Shown: positions 50,718-56,836, counted from the stretch's first letter. The stretch is 64,000 bases of DNA from Gammaproteobacteria bacterium (GCA_022823625.1 JAJEHQ010000006.1:62001-126000); one strand, 5' to 3'. Numbers and translations: made by a program. The notes: generated from the sequence alone by a model not told the origin.

Positions 50718-51365
50718 ATGAATCCAGATTTAACCGTCTCAGACATCGACCAGTGTTTGCCGCAGACACAGTGCACGGTTTGTGGCTATCCGAGTTGTAT
50801 TGAATACGCCAATGCTTTGTTTAACAACGAAGCACAGATCAATCGTTGTCCTCCGGGTGGCGCAGTTACCTTATCCGCGCTGGCAAGTCAATTAAATCAT
50901 CCAGAAATTCCACTGGCGGATGACTGTGCCCCTTACACGGGTCGCTTCATCGCCGAAATTATTGAATCGGAGTGCATTGGATGCACCCTTTGCATTGAAC
51001 CTTGTCCTGTCGATGCCATCGTTGGGGCATCACGCCAGATGCACAGCGTATTGGCTGATGATTGTACTGGCTGCGAGTTGTGTCTCAAATTTTGCCCAGT
51101 CGATTGTATCGTAATGGTCAAGCATTCCGATCAGCGGAAAGGTGAAACCTGGCCTGAATTTTTGGATTCAGAAGTATCCCGCTGGAGACATCTCGCAGCA
51201 CATCATCGTTTGCGGATGCAAACTCAGCAAGATTCATCCGATGTTGCCCAACATGAAGAAATAAAGCAGGAAATTCGAAAGGCAGTAAATCGCGAGCGAA
51301 CAAAGCGGTGGAAGTCAAAAAAGCGCGTCACACGTCTTTCACACTCTCAAGCATCAAATAAATGA
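50718..51365 (+). CDS. RnfB-like soluble ferredoxin protein
   Basis: Iron-sulfur electron carrier of 215 residues. An Fe-S domain with C19-x2-C22-x4-C27 and C44 (CTVCGYPSC, RCPPGG) is followed by two [4Fe-4S] ferredoxin motifs, CIGCTLCIEPCPVD and CTGCELCLKFCPVD. The RnfB membrane anchor is absent and the tail is basic. No rnfACDGE genes are in the window, while nth overlaps its end (ATGA at 51362), which recalls the rnf-nth junction of other gammaproteobacteria. It may be an electron donor to enzymes such as the radical SAM protein nearby; this is inference. The ATG at 50718 is used; the longer frame overlaps metG. Confidence 0.85.
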   Translation: MNPDLTVSDIDQCLPQTQCTVCGYPSCIEYANALFNNEAQINRCPPGGAVTLSALASQLNHPEIPLADDCAPYTGRFIAEIIESECIGCTLCIEPCPVDAIVGASRQMHSVLADDCTGCELCLKFCPVDCIVMVKHSDQRKGETWPEFLDSEVSRWRHLAAHHRLRMQTQQDSSDVAQHEEIKQEIRKAVNRERTKRWKSKKRVTRLSHSQASNK

Positions 51366-52021
51366 ATGCCAAAAAAAGATTCGAAATCTTTACAAGGCTA
51401 AAGGCCGCCAATCCGAATCCAACCACCGAACTGAATTACCGTAGCAACTTTGAGCTGCTGATCGCGGTCGTACTTTCCGCCCAGTCAACCGACAAGGCCG
51501 TTAATCTGGCTACCAGCAAGCTGTTTTCCGCAGCACCTGATCCTCAATCAATGCTGGACCTGGGCATTGATGGACTCCGTGAAATGATTAAGTCAATTGG
51601 TCTATTCAACAGCAAGGCCAAGAATATTCTCAGCTTGTGCAAAATTTTGATCGATAAACACGATGGAAATATTCCATCCAATCGAGTCGATCTGGAAGCG
51701 CTGCCCGGGGTGGGACGAAAAACTGCAAATGTCATTTTGAATACCGCATTTGGTCAACCAACCATCGCGGTTGATACACATATCTTTCGAATTTCAAATC
51801 GAATTGGTCTGGCACCGGGCAAGAATGTCATAGAAGTGGAACAGAATTTGTTGAAATGGGTACCAAAGGAGTTTTTGGTTGATGCCCACCACTGGCTGAT
51901 TCTTCACGGTCGGTACACCTGCACTGCAAAAAAGCCAAATTGCAACTCATGCGGCATTTACGACTTGTGTGAATTTTCTGAAAAGCAGGAATATGCTGAC
52001 ATACAACTTCAAAAGGCATAA
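51362..52021 (+). CDS. nth: Endonuclease III
   Basis: Base-excision DNA glycosylase/AP lyase for oxidised pyrimidines; 219 residues. The helix-hairpin-helix with the catalytic lysine is LPGVGRKTANV, the catalytic aspartate is in VDTHIFR, and the [4Fe-4S] loop is C-x6-C-x2-C-x5-C (CTAKKPNC, NSC, IYDLC). The start ATG overlaps the rnfB-like stop. Normal length. Confidence 0.96.
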   Translation: MNAKKRFEIFTRLKAANPNPTTELNYRSNFELLIAVVLSAQSTDKAVNLATSKLFSAAPDPQSMLDLGIDGLREMIKSIGLFNSKAKNILSLCKILIDKHDGNIPSNRVDLEALPGVGRKTANVILNTAFGQPTIAVDTHIFRISNRIGLAPGKNVIEVEQNLLKWVPKEFLVDAHHWLILHGRYTCTAKKPNCNSCGIYDLCEFSEKQEYADIQLQKA

Positions 52022-52031
52022 AGGCTAGAGA

Positions 52032-52469
52032 ATGACGACTGAAACCAATGAACGTCAGTTCCTGTTTGACGTTTGGAACAAAGTTCAGAACAAAGAAAAG
52101 CTCAATGCTACGGAAAAGATGATCAGCAAAATCATCGAAATGCACCCAGAAGTGGACAGCGTGCTATCAAATCCTGAAGTTTTTGCCGATCATCAATTTG
52201 ACTTTGATGAACCGGACCCTTTTTCTCACCTTGGTCTGCATGCCATCGTAATGGAAATGGTGAGCAATGACTCACCAAGCGGACTTCGCTCCATCTATGA
52301 TCATCGCGTAAACCAAAGAGGAGATAAACACGAGGCTCAACACGACCTGATGCTGGCTGTATTTGACTGGCTGGTCGTCAATGCGGAAGATGAAACGTAT
52401 GAGCAACAGGAAGGACAGTTTATCGCCCAACTGCGTGAACAATTCAGTCAGCCAGTCCCTGACAACTGA
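52032..52469 (+). CDS. DUF1841 family protein
   Basis: Conserved proteobacterial protein of 145 residues with unknown role. The family core is FSHLGLHAIVMEMVSND through GLRSIYDHRV and then HEAQHDLMLAVFDWL, with several histidines that could bind metal. It lies 10 bp after nth, its usual neighbour in gammaproteobacteria. It ends in a short hairpin (ATCACC/GGTGAT at 52469-52486), without a U-run. No signal peptide. Confidence 0.85.
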   Translation: MTTETNERQFLFDVWNKVQNKEKLNATEKMISKIIEMHPEVDSVLSNPEVFADHQFDFDEPDPFSHLGLHAIVMEMVSNDSPSGLRSIYDHRVNQRGDKHEAQHDLMLAVFDWLVVNAEDETYEQQEGQFIAQLREQFSQPVPDN

Positions 52470-52651: not shown

Positions 52652-52912
52652 ATGAAGTCACAGAAACTTCTTCTCGCTACAGCGATTAGCGGTGCAATCG
52701 CTCTCGGCACATTGACCCTTTCAACCGTCGCCAATGCGGAGGAAGAAAAGGAGAAATGCTATGGCGTAGCCAAAGCCGGACACAATGACTGTCAAACCGC
52801 CAACAGCTCATGCGCTGGCACTTCAACCATGGATGATCAGAGCGATGCATTTGTTCTTCTTCCCAAGGGGTTGTGCGGAAAACTCGCCGGCGGCAGTTTA
52901 GAATCTTCGTAG
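52652..52912 (+). CDS. bufA: Bufferin precursor, DUF2282 family
   Basis: Secreted metallophore-type precursor peptide of 86 residues. Residues 1-29 are a Sec signal peptide (KSQKLLLATAISG, cleavage near VANA). The mature part has four cysteines at 36, 47, 54 and 75 in the DUF2282 pattern EKCYGVAKAGHNDCQ, NSSCAGTS, DAFVLLPKGLCGKLAGG. Such peptides (BufA; GigP in Cupriavidus) have cysteines converted to thio-oxazoles by the MNIO enzyme and bind copper in the periplasm. GGAGG at 52639-52643 is an excellent ribosome site. First gene of the buf operon; 182 bp lie between it and DUF1841. Copper binding is from the family, not shown here. Confidence 0.9.
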   Translation: MKSQKLLLATAISGAIALGTLTLSTVANAEEEKEKCYGVAKAGHNDCQTANSSCAGTSTMDDQSDAFVLLPKGLCGKLAGGSLESS

Positions 52913-52948
52913 TAGAATTCCTGCAATTTTTCGATTAATTGCTTTGAG

Positions 52949-53800
52949 ATGGTTACGCGCCCGATTTCAGCTGATTCCGTTGGAATCGGGTTGCGTGCCG
53001 ATCACTGCGAATATGTCGCAGCCAATAGGCCGTCAGTAGACTGGTTCGAAGTCCACAGTGAAAATTACTTCGGACGAGGTGGCGCTCCTCACGACTGGTT
53101 AACACAAATCCGTCAAAACTACAACCTCAGCTTTCATGGCGTTGGGCTTTCACTGGGTTCAACAGACGACCTGAATGTAAAACACCTGGAAAGGCTCAAG
53201 GAAATAATTGACATTTACGAGCCGGGTCTGGTGTCAGAACACTTGTCGTGGAGTTCAATTGATGGAATCTACCTTCACGACCTTTTACCACTGCCATTCA
53301 CAAAAGAAACGATTTCACATCTCGCAGGTCGCATCGGGCGGGTTCAGGACACGTTAGGTCGCACAATCCTAGTCGAAAATGCGTCGACCTATCTTGAGTT
53401 CTCGCATTCCGAAATGAGTGAATGGGAGTTCATAAACGAAATCACCCGCCTAAGTGGATGTCAATTATTGCTTGACATCAATAACGTATATGTAAATGCC
53501 TGCAATCACCAGTTTGACCCGATTGAATTTCTTTCCGAGATATCACCGAGCATAGTCGGTGAAATTCACTTGGCAGGACACACCGTGAAGAATTTGCCGG
53601 AAGGTACGATTCGTATTGACACTCATGACCAGAGAGTCTGCGACGAAGTCTGGAATCTATACGAAACCGTTGCAAATCGCTTTAACACAGCACCCACTCT
53701 GATTGAATGGGATAAGGACCTACCGGAATTCTCCGTTCTGATGGATGAAGCAAATATTGCGAGAAGCTACCGTCAGGAGACGCAAAGTGCAGCTGCGTGA
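52949..53800 (+). CDS. bufB: MNIO (DUF692) peptide-modifying enzyme BufB
   Basis: Multinuclear non-heme iron-dependent oxidative enzyme with a TIM-barrel fold, 283 residues. It modifies cysteines in the partner peptide in the cytoplasm before export. Conserved metal-site blocks: VDWFEVHSENYFG (near 27-39), FHGVGLSLGS, LVSEHLSWSS, ILVENASTYLEF, LLLDINNVYVNACNH and VGEIHLAGH, with the expected His, Asp and Glu residues present. It starts 36 bp after bufA, with no strong ribosome site (GAG before ATG). The end overlaps bufC by 14 bp. The reaction is known from family members; here it is inferred. Confidence 0.9.
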   Translation: MVTRPISADSVGIGLRADHCEYVAANRPSVDWFEVHSENYFGRGGAPHDWLTQIRQNYNLSFHGVGLSLGSTDDLNVKHLERLKEIIDIYEPGLVSEHLSWSSIDGIYLHDLLPLPFTKETISHLAGRIGRVQDTLGRTILVENASTYLEFSHSEMSEWEFINEITRLSGCQLLLDINNVYVNACNHQFDPIEFLSEISPSIVGEIHLAGHTVKNLPEGTIRIDTHDQRVCDEVWNLYETVANRFNTAPTLIEWDKDLPEFSVLMDEANIARSYRQETQSAAA

Positions 53801-54575
53801 ATTGCAGAGTCAATTTAGTGCTGAGATTCTTTGCGGAGAAAATTCAAGCGTACAAACACTTGTTGAACAGCGCGGTTTTCAAGCCACACAGCGAATTAAT
53901 ATTTACCGGAATAACATCTTTGCAACCCTGACTGATACTCTAGCCAACATATTTCCTGTGAGCTGCGCAATGGTTGGTGAAGAGTTCTTCAAATCAATGG
54001 CGCAAATCTATACTCGATCCCATACACCTGACAGCGGGAATCTGCATGATTTTGGTGAACACCTGCCGTCATTAATTGAGTCCATGCCGGAACTCAGCAA
54101 CTATCCGTATTTATCTGCACTCGCCGAAATTGACTGGGCTTGCCATCGAGCGTTTCACTCGGCATCAGCGACTGCTCTTGACATCAGCAGTCTGAGTGAT
54201 TTTTCACCCGACAACTACGAAGACCTTCAGTTTGAATTTCACCCTTCAATACACACAATCAAGTCCAAATTTTCGATATTTGATATTTGGGAATTCGCGA
54301 CGTCGAATGGCCACGCTGACACCATACCGGACATTAAGTCTGAAGGACAACAAGTTCTGATTCATCGCTCAAAAAGTGGTGTAAAAGTCGTAAACATCGA
54401 AGACGATCTATTTCAAATGATCAATTTTCTCCGCGAACATGAAACGCTCGGAGCGACTATTACCTCAATTCTGGAATTAAATCCCGAATACAATTTGAAA
54501 GAAGGATTGAATCGCCTGTTTTCGTTTGGTGCAGTATCCACAATTACGGTTAAGCGTAGATTCGTTCATCAATAA
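53787..54575 (+). CDS. bufC: BufC, DUF2063 MNIO-partner protein
   Basis: DUF2063 (putative DNA-binding-like) partner of the DUF692 enzyme, 262 residues; it binds the leader or precursor so that BufB can act on it. The family start LRELQSQFSAEI is followed by INIYRNNIFATLTDTLANIFPVSCAMVGEEFF, then NLHDFGEHLPSLI and LSALAEIDWACHRAFHSA. The GTG at 53787 with AGGAG seven bases upstream is chosen over an ATG at 53745. It overlaps bufB by 14 bp in another frame, implying coupled translation. Confidence 0.86.
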   Translation: MQLRELQSQFSAEILCGENSSVQTLVEQRGFQATQRINIYRNNIFATLTDTLANIFPVSCAMVGEEFFKSMAQIYTRSHTPDSGNLHDFGEHLPSLIESMPELSNYPYLSALAEIDWACHRAFHSASATALDISSLSDFSPDNYEDLQFEFHPSIHTIKSKFSIFDIWEFATSNGHADTIPDIKSEGQQVLIHRSKSGVKVVNIEDDLFQMINFLREHETLGATITSILELNPEYNLKEGLNRLFSFGAVSTITVKRRFVHQ

Positions 54576-54602
54576 TTCTACTTCTCGGTCCAGGAAGAAC
54601 TT

Positions 54603-55043
54603 ATGGCTGCAATCATTCAACTTTATCGAAAAATACTCTGTCTGCTAAATTGTGGGGCACCGATTGCCGATCTGTTGGTACGACTTTGGATAGCAAATGT
54701 CTTTTGGAAATCTGGACTGACCAAAATAGCCAACATAGATACCACAATGTATCTCTTTGAATACGAATACGCTGTGCCGATTGTGCCATTTGAATTGGCA
54801 GCTTACATGGCGATATTTGCGGAACTGGTCTTTCCGGTGCTTTTGGTTCTTGGGCTTGCGACTCGAGCGACTGCCGGAGCACTTTTTATATTCAATGCCA
54901 TGGCTGTTATTTCGTACCCGTCATTGAATCCCGCTGGGATTGTTCAGCACCAAGTGTGGGGCATCATGCTGTTGATCCCGCTGTTTCATGGAGCCGGGGC
55001 CATTTCACTTGACCACTTCATAAACAAGCGGTTTCCCAAGTAG
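54603..55043 (+). CDS. DoxX family membrane protein of the buf operon
   Basis: Small membrane protein of 146 residues with about four hydrophobic helices (near 19-37, 65-84, 88-104 and 116-132). The DoxX opening is LVRLWIANVFWKSGLTKI, followed by PFELAAYMAIFAELVFPVLLVLGLATR and WGIMLLIPLFHGAGAISLDHF. DoxX members occur with DUF2282 operons (GigT in the gold-induced gig operon), possibly for redox or quinone-linked steps. It starts 27 bp after bufC and its stop overlaps the next start by one base. Role in metallopeptide export or redox balance is unproven. Confidence 0.85.
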   Translation: MAAIIQLYRKILCLLNCGAPIADLLVRLWIANVFWKSGLTKIANIDTTMYLFEYEYAVPIVPFELAAYMAIFAELVFPVLLVLGLATRATAGALFIFNAMAVISYPSLNPAGIVQHQVWGIMLLIPLFHGAGAISLDHFINKRFPK

Positions 55044-56086
55044 TGACTTCAATGGACGTGCTTAACGACACCATACCTGTCGTATCTGACACATTCAGTG
55101 ATCTGTCGCTAGATTCCAGCAGTTCAATCAAACGCTGGAATTTTTTCTCAACACTCCATGAAAATGGAATCAGAGGGCTAACGCGCGCCAAAATTCGTGA
55201 AGTTCAGGTCAATCTAGGCAAACTCTGTAATCAGGCGTGTAATCACTGTCACGTAGATGCAGGTCCTAATCGGACTGAAATCATGACTTGGGAAGTCATG
55301 GAAAAAATTGCCCGCTGGTGTGTCGATAACCAAGTCGAATCAGTCGATGTAACCGGTGGAGCACCGGAGCTCAACCCGAATTTCAGACGTTTCGTCAATA
55401 CCTGTCTCCAGAACAACATGTTAGTTACCTCGCGATGCAACCTGACAGTGTTGCTGGTTGATGGGCAAGAAGACCTCGCCGCCTGGTATACCAAGCGTGG
55501 AGTGAAACTGATCTGCTCGCTGCCCTGTTATTCCAAGGACAATCTCGAGCAGCAACGTGGTAAAGGTACATTTGGACAGAGTATCAGTGCCCTGCAAATT
55601 TTGAACAAGCACGGCTATGGCATCAATCCAAACCTTGAACTAGACCTCGTCTATAACCCCAATGGAGCTTTTCTGCCGCCGGCTCAGGATTCGTTGGAAG
55701 CAACTTATAAAATTCGTCTTGAAGAAGATTTCGGTATTCATTTCAACCGACTTTACACGCTTACGAATTTACCGATTAGCCGCTTCCGACACTATCTGAA
55801 ACGAACCGGGGAATATGAAAGCTACATGAACCTTCTGCAGGAAAAATTCAATCCACAGACAGTGCCAAATCTGATGTGTCGGCACATCATCAGTGTAGAC
55901 TGGTTAGGGAGAATCTACGACTGTGACTTCAATCAGATGCTGGATATTCCAGCCGGCTGGCACAAGCCTAGATATCTGTGGGAACAAGATCTTCATCAGT
56001 TCACGAATGACCGTATTGCAGTCGATTCCCATTGCTTTGGTTGTACAGCTGGCGCGGGAAGCAGTTGCGGTGGTTCACTCGCGTGA
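55043..56086 (+). CDS. Radical SAM protein of the ArsS (arsenosugar biosynthesis) family
   Basis: Radical SAM enzyme of 347 residues. The cluster motif is C62-x3-C66-x2-C69 in GKLCNQACNHCHVDAGPNRTE. After it come VDVTGGAPELNPNFR, LVTSRCNLTVLL, and the Cys-rich C-terminus MCRHIISVDWLGRIYDCDFNQML and HCFGCTAGAGSSCGGSL. This is the pattern of ArsS, which makes dimethylarsenosugar from SAM and arsenite-derived substrates, usually with ArsM. No arsM, arsR or arsB gene is in the window. The GTG at 55043 overlaps the doxX stop; an ATG three codons on is also possible. Coupling to doxX suggests it belongs to the buf operon, perhaps as a further modifier of the peptide or a linked metalloid-detoxification step. 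Confidence 0.85.
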   Translation: MTSMDVLNDTIPVVSDTFSDLSLDSSSSIKRWNFFSTLHENGIRGLTRAKIREVQVNLGKLCNQACNHCHVDAGPNRTEIMTWEVMEKIARWCVDNQVESVDVTGGAPELNPNFRRFVNTCLQNNMLVTSRCNLTVLLVDGQEDLAAWYTKRGVKLICSLPCYSKDNLEQQRGKGTFGQSISALQILNKHGYGINPNLELDLVYNPNGAFLPPAQDSLEATYKIRLEEDFGIHFNRLYTLTNLPISRFRHYLKRTGEYESYMNLLQEKFNPQTVPNLMCRHIISVDWLGRIYDCDFNQMLDIPAGWHKPRYLWEQDLHQFTNDRIAVDSHCFGCTAGAGSSCGGSLA

Positions 56087-56095
56087 CTTTTTGAG

Positions 56096-56836
56096 CTATT
56101 TGGCCAATCGCTGTCGATACGCCTCAAAAGCAACCACGCCAACCGCAACTGAAACGTTCAGACTTGAAATTTTGCCTCGCATTGGTATGCAGGCGAGCTG
56201 ATCACATCTCTTTCTGGTTCCAACCCGCATTCCAGTCTCTTCCGTGCCGAATACCAGTACACATTTTTCCGACAAATCTAGTTCGTAGACAGAATCGGTC
56301 GCGTCTCCTTCGAGTCCCACAACAAAGTAATCCTGCGACTTCAACTCATCCAGCGTACGAATGAGATTTGATGCACGGTAAATCGGGGTGGTTTCCACCG
56401 CACCTGCCGCAGTTCGGGAAACAGTCGCTGTAAGCGCGCAGCCGCGACTTCGGGGTAGAATCACGCCTCCCACTCCGGCAGCGTTGGCACTTCGAAAGCA
56501 TGCGCCAAGATTACGCGGATCCAAAATTCCATCCAAAGCAACAAGCAGATTTGAATCCTGTAGCGTACCAAGCCATTCAGATAAACTCTTACCGTGCGAA
56601 TCACCGACTCGAAAATGGCTGAGAATAATAACCCCCTGATGTTTGTTTCCTTCAGAGATCTCAGCCAGATCACTGTTTGGCAAACGTTTGATCTTGATCC
56701 CGCGACTTCTTGCAATTTGCTCAATTTCCCGCAAGCGACGATCTTGTCGCTTAGCGCTCAATAACACCGTTTCAATATCGTCTGCCCGGTTTTTCAACAT
56801 CGCGATGGCGACATGTATGCCGTAGTGTTTTTGCAT
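56096..56836 (-). CDS. rlmB: 23S rRNA (guanosine-2'-O)-methyltransferase RlmB
   Basis: SPOUT-family methyltransferase for Gm2251 in 23S rRNA, 246 residues. The N-terminal substrate domain opens with YGIHVAIAML. SPOUT motifs are LDGILDPRNLGACFRSANAAGVGGVILP in segments, LVFGTEETGMR and CIPMRGKISSLNVSVAVGVVAFE, forming the SAM knot. It follows the RNase R-like gene on the same strand by 101 bp, the classical rnr-rlmB pair, and converges with the ArsS-type gene. Confidence 0.95.
   Translation of the reverse strand: MQKHYGIHVAIAMLKNRADDIETVLLSAKRQDRRLREIEQIARSRGIKIKRLPNSDLAEISEGNKHQGVIILSHFRVGDSHGKSLSEWLGTLQDSNLLVALDGILDPRNLGACFRSANAAGVGGVILPRSRGCALTATVSRTAAGAVETTPIYRASNLIRTLDELKSQDYFVVGLEGDATDSVYELDLSEKCVLVFGTEETGMRVGTRKRCDQLACIPMRGKISSLNVSVAVGVVAFEAYRQRLAK

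Follow-up and report, generated by a model that had tools for sequence, protein, structure and literature searches.

The Locus Carries a Bufferin Operon and a Radical SAM Gene

In the window, a stretch of 64,000 nucleotides from a genome of the order containing Arenicella (G000; 3.18 Mb, 44 contigs, 97% complete), we identified five genes that lie head to tail on the plus strand (Table 1). An earlier note, made from the sequence alone, had placed five such genes here, and HMM searches recovered each of them at its position and in its family. Upstream lie nth and a DUF1841 gene, together with an rsxB-like ferredoxin gene, and the convergent rlmB bounds the unit downstream.

Table 1. Genes of the bufferin-radical SAM locus and its neighbors, with window positions.
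Gene	Product	Position	Strand	Evidence and remarks
nth	Endonuclease III, part of the conserved locus backbone	51362..52021	+	TIGR01083, 279.5 bits; syntenic in clade-B loci
	DUF1841 protein, conserved neighbor upstream	52032..52469	+	PF08897, 96 bits; same place in other families too
bufA	Buf1-type (DUF2282) bufferin precursor, 86 aa	52652..52912	+	PF10048, 80.9 bits (cut-off 22.4)
bufB	MNIO (DUF692) bufferin maturase, 283 aa	52949..53800	+	NF050167 (BufB), 386.7 bits (cut-off 310); PF05114, 356 bits
bufC	DUF2063 partner protein, GTG start	53787..54575	+	PF09836, 75.7 bits (over cut-off)
doxX	DoxX/HvfX-type membrane protein, 146 aa	54603..55043	+	PF07681, 64.4 bits (over cut-off)
	Radical SAM protein, ArsS family, subfamily B, GTG start	55043..56086	+	TIGR04167, 426 bits (cut-off 300); DUF3641, 185 bits
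rlmB	Convergent downstream neighbor	56096..56836	-	TIGR00186, 202 bits (cut-off 160)

The first four genes had been taken for a bufferin operon, and they form a complete Buf1-type set by HMM: a four-cysteine DUF2282 precursor, a BufB-type MNIO, and DUF2063 and DoxX genes. The N-terminus of BufA resembles a signal peptide as judged by eye, and its four cysteines align with those of the precursors of relatives. The bufB product is homologous to PDB 3bww. The bufC product scored below the cut-off of the HvfC model, as did the DoxX product against the HvfX model NF050144 (60 bits, cut-off 80). The longest frame of bufC opens at an ATG at 53745; the GTG at 53787 yields the 14-bp overlap with bufB that the earlier note had described, and this start is supported by the same 14-base overlap in G044-G046, which belong to the same genus.

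Gene order (precursor, MNIO, DUF2063, DoxX) and the four-cysteine secreted precursor are shared with the Buf1 operons of Caulobacter and Cupriavidus (gig; PMC12452194). Unlike those operons, the cassette in the window has no adjoining sigma/anti-sigma genes and is followed by an ArsS-family gene. By analogy, BufB together with BufC would convert the cysteines of the secreted precursor into thio-oxazoles, giving a peptide that buffers periplasmic copper, with DoxX as an accessory protein. The survey that defines the bufferin core as precursor, MNIO, DUF2063 and DoxX mentions neither ArsS nor DUF3641 (PMC12452194), and no literature tying bufferin to either was found in the open-access full texts searched. 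The operon is of a known kind; its neighborhood is unusual, old and, on the evidence of those texts, unremarked.

The TIGR04167 match of the radical SAM protein is full length (positions 2-303 of 303) and the protein carries the cluster motif CNQACNHC. With the GTG at 55043 as start, the gene overlaps doxX by one base, as had been claimed; an alternative in-frame ATG nine bases inward (55052) would instead leave an 8-base gap. Weak scans revealed neither a terminator-like site in the doxX-radical SAM junction nor a sigma-70-like site 5' of the radical SAM start. Nearly all linked genomes have a gap of -1 to 84 bases between the two genes, with a spacing typical of translational coupling (-1, -4/-1) in much of the window's genus and fewer than 85 bases in the other families. 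Transcription from the bufferin promoter probably runs on into the radical SAM gene in the window's genus.

The Adjacency Recurs in Many Genomes

Gene neighborhoods were surveyed in 109 genomes of the order and in 369 genomes of the class, the latter spread evenly over families. Within the order, a radical SAM protein over the cut-off was found in 80 genomes, an MNIO in 48 and a DUF2282 gene in 44. The bufferin and radical SAM genes are directly linked in at least 23 of the 109 order genomes, representing five families (f1, f3, f6, f7 and f10), and an identical arrangement occurs outside the order in at least three genomes of family f122 (G334, G218 and G432). The earlier note had raised the case that ArsS adjoins the bufferin genes in this genome only; instead the adjacency recurs in many genomes, and the shared gene order rules out chance or a single-genome event. 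The arrangement was not seen in the loci examined in the remaining class genomes, among the matches listed. In f125 an MNIO gene lies about 4 kb from the radical SAM gene on the opposite strand, and in G176 a bufferin cluster lies about 3 kb downstream of it.

In G475 (Acidiferrobacterales), an MNIO cassette of the EGKCG/oxazolin type stands at the same site, flanked by DUF1841 and the radical SAM gene; its precursor belongs to another family than that of the window, and its MNIO is more distant. Besides an EGKCG-repeat precursor, an MNIO and a DUF2063 gene, this cassette (L260:1570-8400, L374) includes an additional gene resembling glutamate synthase and has a different DoxX.

The Radical SAM Gene Co-occurs With Glycosyltransferases

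Over the 369 class genomes, the radical SAM gene and the glycosyltransferase TIGR04283 occur together in 176, the radical SAM gene alone in 7, the glycosyltransferase alone in 16 and neither in 170 (phi 0.88), against 121, 62, 100 and 86 genomes, in the same order, for the radical SAM gene and MNIO (phi 0.13); within the order the coefficients are 0.71 and 0.24, respectively, and at both levels they are uncorrected for phylogeny. In family f9 the radical SAM gene is present in 22 of 24 genomes and MNIO in only 2, and 20 genomes keep the radical SAM gene in place without the bufferin genes. Elsewhere in the class its usual neighbors are TIGR04283, TIGR04282 and often an ArsM-like methyltransferase; in G190, G474 and G475 both glycosyltransferase genes lie directly behind it. 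The window's own genome encodes TIGR04282 (152.8 bits) and TIGR04283 (222.9 bits) proteins, both over the cut-off. Their genes adjoin each other near argG on contig C13 (L235:6598-7935), and the radical SAM gene is on another contig.

The strong association with TIGR04283, the low one with MNIO and the persistence of the gene where bufferin genes are missing speak against the radical SAM enzyme as part of the bufferin system, and the functional coupling that the earlier note had proposed is mostly not supported. Our main reading, to which we assign a probability of roughly two in three, is that a Buf1-type bufferin operon stands in front of an ArsS-lineage radical SAM gene that functions independently, the two being adjacent by ancient synteny. 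Together with TIGR04283 and TIGR04282, the two glycosyltransferases not linked to it, the radical SAM enzyme would serve a pathway of the arsenosugar type, whose exact product is presumptive. Close and even overlapping genes can thus mislead, as the fifth gene of an apparent operon follows another pathway across genomes.

History of the Locus and a Subfamily of ArsS-Type Enzymes

The radical SAM tree consists of two fully supported halves, clade A, linked to ArsM or glycosyltransferases, and clade B, at the nth locus. The protein of the window falls in clade B, which comprises 57 sequences, 25 of them bufferin-linked. The linked sequences are scattered over clade B and call for only about four changes, on a backbone that is poorly resolved. 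The linked MNIOs are likewise coherent, and the adjacency is old and vertically inherited. The tree of the TIGR04283 proteins (GT83) mirrors the A/B split, with 24 of the 25 sequences of B-type genomes together; G021 has an A-type radical SAM protein and an A-side GT83, though its family is otherwise B.

Of the clade-B loci, 49 have 5.5 kb or more of upstream sequence; the nth/FIST block is kept in 45 of these and MNIO in 23. The position of the radical SAM gene is therefore firmer with housekeeping neighbors, for which a joint function is unlikely, than with the bufferin genes, which points to block synteny. The ancestral block would have read metG-rsxB-nth-FIST-DUF1841-bufferin cassette-radical SAM gene. 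In the simplest account of its history, the cassette was present early in clade B and was then lost several times, the radical SAM gene staying put each time: such losses would have been complete in f9, would have affected just the radical SAM locus in f2 and in some of f12, and would have spared only DoxX in G190 and G474. In the latter two genomes (L371 and L373), DoxX directly precedes the radical SAM gene without precursor, MNIO or DUF2063, as a remnant or as a DoxX-radical SAM pair. Many families carry a FIST-domain gene in the interval from nth to the bufferin cassette or to the radical SAM gene (e.g., L101 3275-4483 and relatives). Against full independence counts that the linkage seems to be about as old as clade B itself and more conserved than that of a random neighbor need be. 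The different MNIO cassette at the same spot in G475 could also hint at a real link to the radical SAM gene.

The cysteines of the CxxxCxxC motif and of DUF3641 (C62, C66, C69, C279, C294, C331, C334 and C342) are fixed in both clades, and clade B is set off from clade A by C158, W148, Y149, H250 and R254. Cys158 (window positions 55514-55516) lies four residues before Cys162, giving CSLPC versus ASLPC, and is found in 96% of clade B and 0% of clade A. It also occurs in Binatota, Deltaproteobacteria and others, including two deltaproteobacterial loci (L321 and L336) in which it is found together with ArsM and both glycosyltransferases. As a mark of bufferin linkage Cys158 was ruled out, since unlinked clade-B enzymes carry it equally, and so do enzymes of other phyla. 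In the Gammaproteobacteria sampled, the clade-B subfamily is confined to the nth/bufferin locus lineage and looks undescribed. The radical SAM protein of the window is like ArsS/TIGR04167 proteins in its whole-length match over the cut-off, its DUF3641 domain, its cluster cysteines and the co-occurrence with TIGR04282 and TIGR04283; unlike the usual ArsS, it belongs to subfamily B with Cys158, ArsM is undetected in its genome, the glycosyltransferases are on another contig and its gene lies behind a bufferin cassette.

A Possible Metal-Stress Unit and the Undetected ArsM

The bufferin operon and the radical SAM gene are possibly co-regulated by thiophilic-metal stress. Two functionally independent systems would then be held in one regulated transcript, induced by copper or gold and by arsenic, an explanation that we consider tentative and rather unlikely. 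It draws on the coupling-type spacing in much of the genus, the gaps below 85 bases elsewhere, the junction in which no terminator was seen, the conservation of the adjacency across two lineages, and the metal-induced bufferin clusters known as gig operons (PMC12452194). It is at odds with the repeated loss of the adjacency while the radical SAM gene stays, and with the absence of ArsM from most of the genomes. A shared transcript that joins copper and arsenic handling is possible, as the earlier note had suggested for the pair.

In G000, 97% complete, the canonical ArsM profile gave no match, and the best match to a second model, NF008823, was partial at 71.5 bits (cut-off 263), so that "arsenic handling" itself is uncertain. 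The canonical profile matches 18 of the 109 order genomes, none of which is bufferin-linked at the radical SAM locus; about ten more are recovered by a broader model. ArsM was not found in 17 of the 22 other linked genomes, and in 51 order genomes the radical SAM gene and TIGR04283 are present and ArsM was not detected. Such co-occurrence with TIGR04283 and no detectable ArsM, seen in most genomes including G000, looks undescribed. An ArsM-like match in G021 (C14:24054-24719, 210 bits) contains one in-frame TGA and is a possible selenoprotein or a broken gene.

Since ArsM is undetected, the "arsenosugar" label for the clade-B product is carried over from the family. Bacteria with an "arsenosugar" radical SAM enzyme and a glycosyltransferase, and no detectable ArsM, pose a puzzle: they either use arsenic methylated by neighbors or make something else. 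That the clade-B enzyme and the two glycosyltransferases make a product other than an arsenosugar, as the 51 genomes and the deep split of clade B, with its own residues, from the ArsM-linked clade would suggest, we regard as unlikely. The clade-B enzymes retain the DUF3641 motif and every cluster cysteine, neighbors could supply methylated arsenic or an unrecognized methyltransferase could act, and the occurrence of C158 in the deltaproteobacterial loci with ArsM and both glycosyltransferases favors ArsS-like chemistry in clade B. It is more doubtful still that the product is ArsM-independent (some other metalloid or thiol compound with an adenosyl or sugar link) and that the long-standing placement behind the bufferin genes reflects a joint metal-stress response.

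The Radical SAM Enzyme and the Bufferin Peptide

The earlier note had also offered a second modification of the bufferin peptide by the radical SAM enzyme, which we consider very improbable. The adjacency and close spacing in at least 23 order genomes and at least three of f122 would fit it, and radical SAM enzymes that form thio(seleno)oxazoles are known from work cited in PMC12668002. In a comparison of the predicted fold, SPASM-type peptide maturases rank first (SkfB, Z 19.3; SuiB, 18.3), but BlsE (17.5), viperin and MoaA (both about 15) follow closely; radical SAM/SPASM proteins in general share this fold, and the comparison is not discriminating. Every match of the protein to NCBIfam peptide-maturase models was partial and far below the cut-off, and a sequence search against solved structures returned only weak partial matches, to YydG/EpeE. 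Against the proposal stand the phi of only 0.13 with MNIO over the class, the 20 f9 genomes that keep the radical SAM gene without any MNIO, and bufferin clusters elsewhere that are complete without it (PMC12452194). Moreover, only four sites, all conservative, consistently tell linked clade-B enzymes from unlinked ones. The disordered residues 1-30 leave no space for a fused RRE; this is weak evidence, since an RRE might act in trans via BufC.

An additional modification site in the precursor was considered and rejected: in an alignment of the linked precursors, no conserved cysteine or motif was seen beyond the usual four Buf1 cysteines. In G047 (L097, 4551 and 5357), tandem, nearly identical DUF2282 precursors lie ahead of the MNIO gene. 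Tandem DUF2282 precursors also occur in G001 (L150) and most f2 genomes, away from the radical SAM locus, together with MNIO frames of 534-585 aa that are apparently fused to DUF2063.
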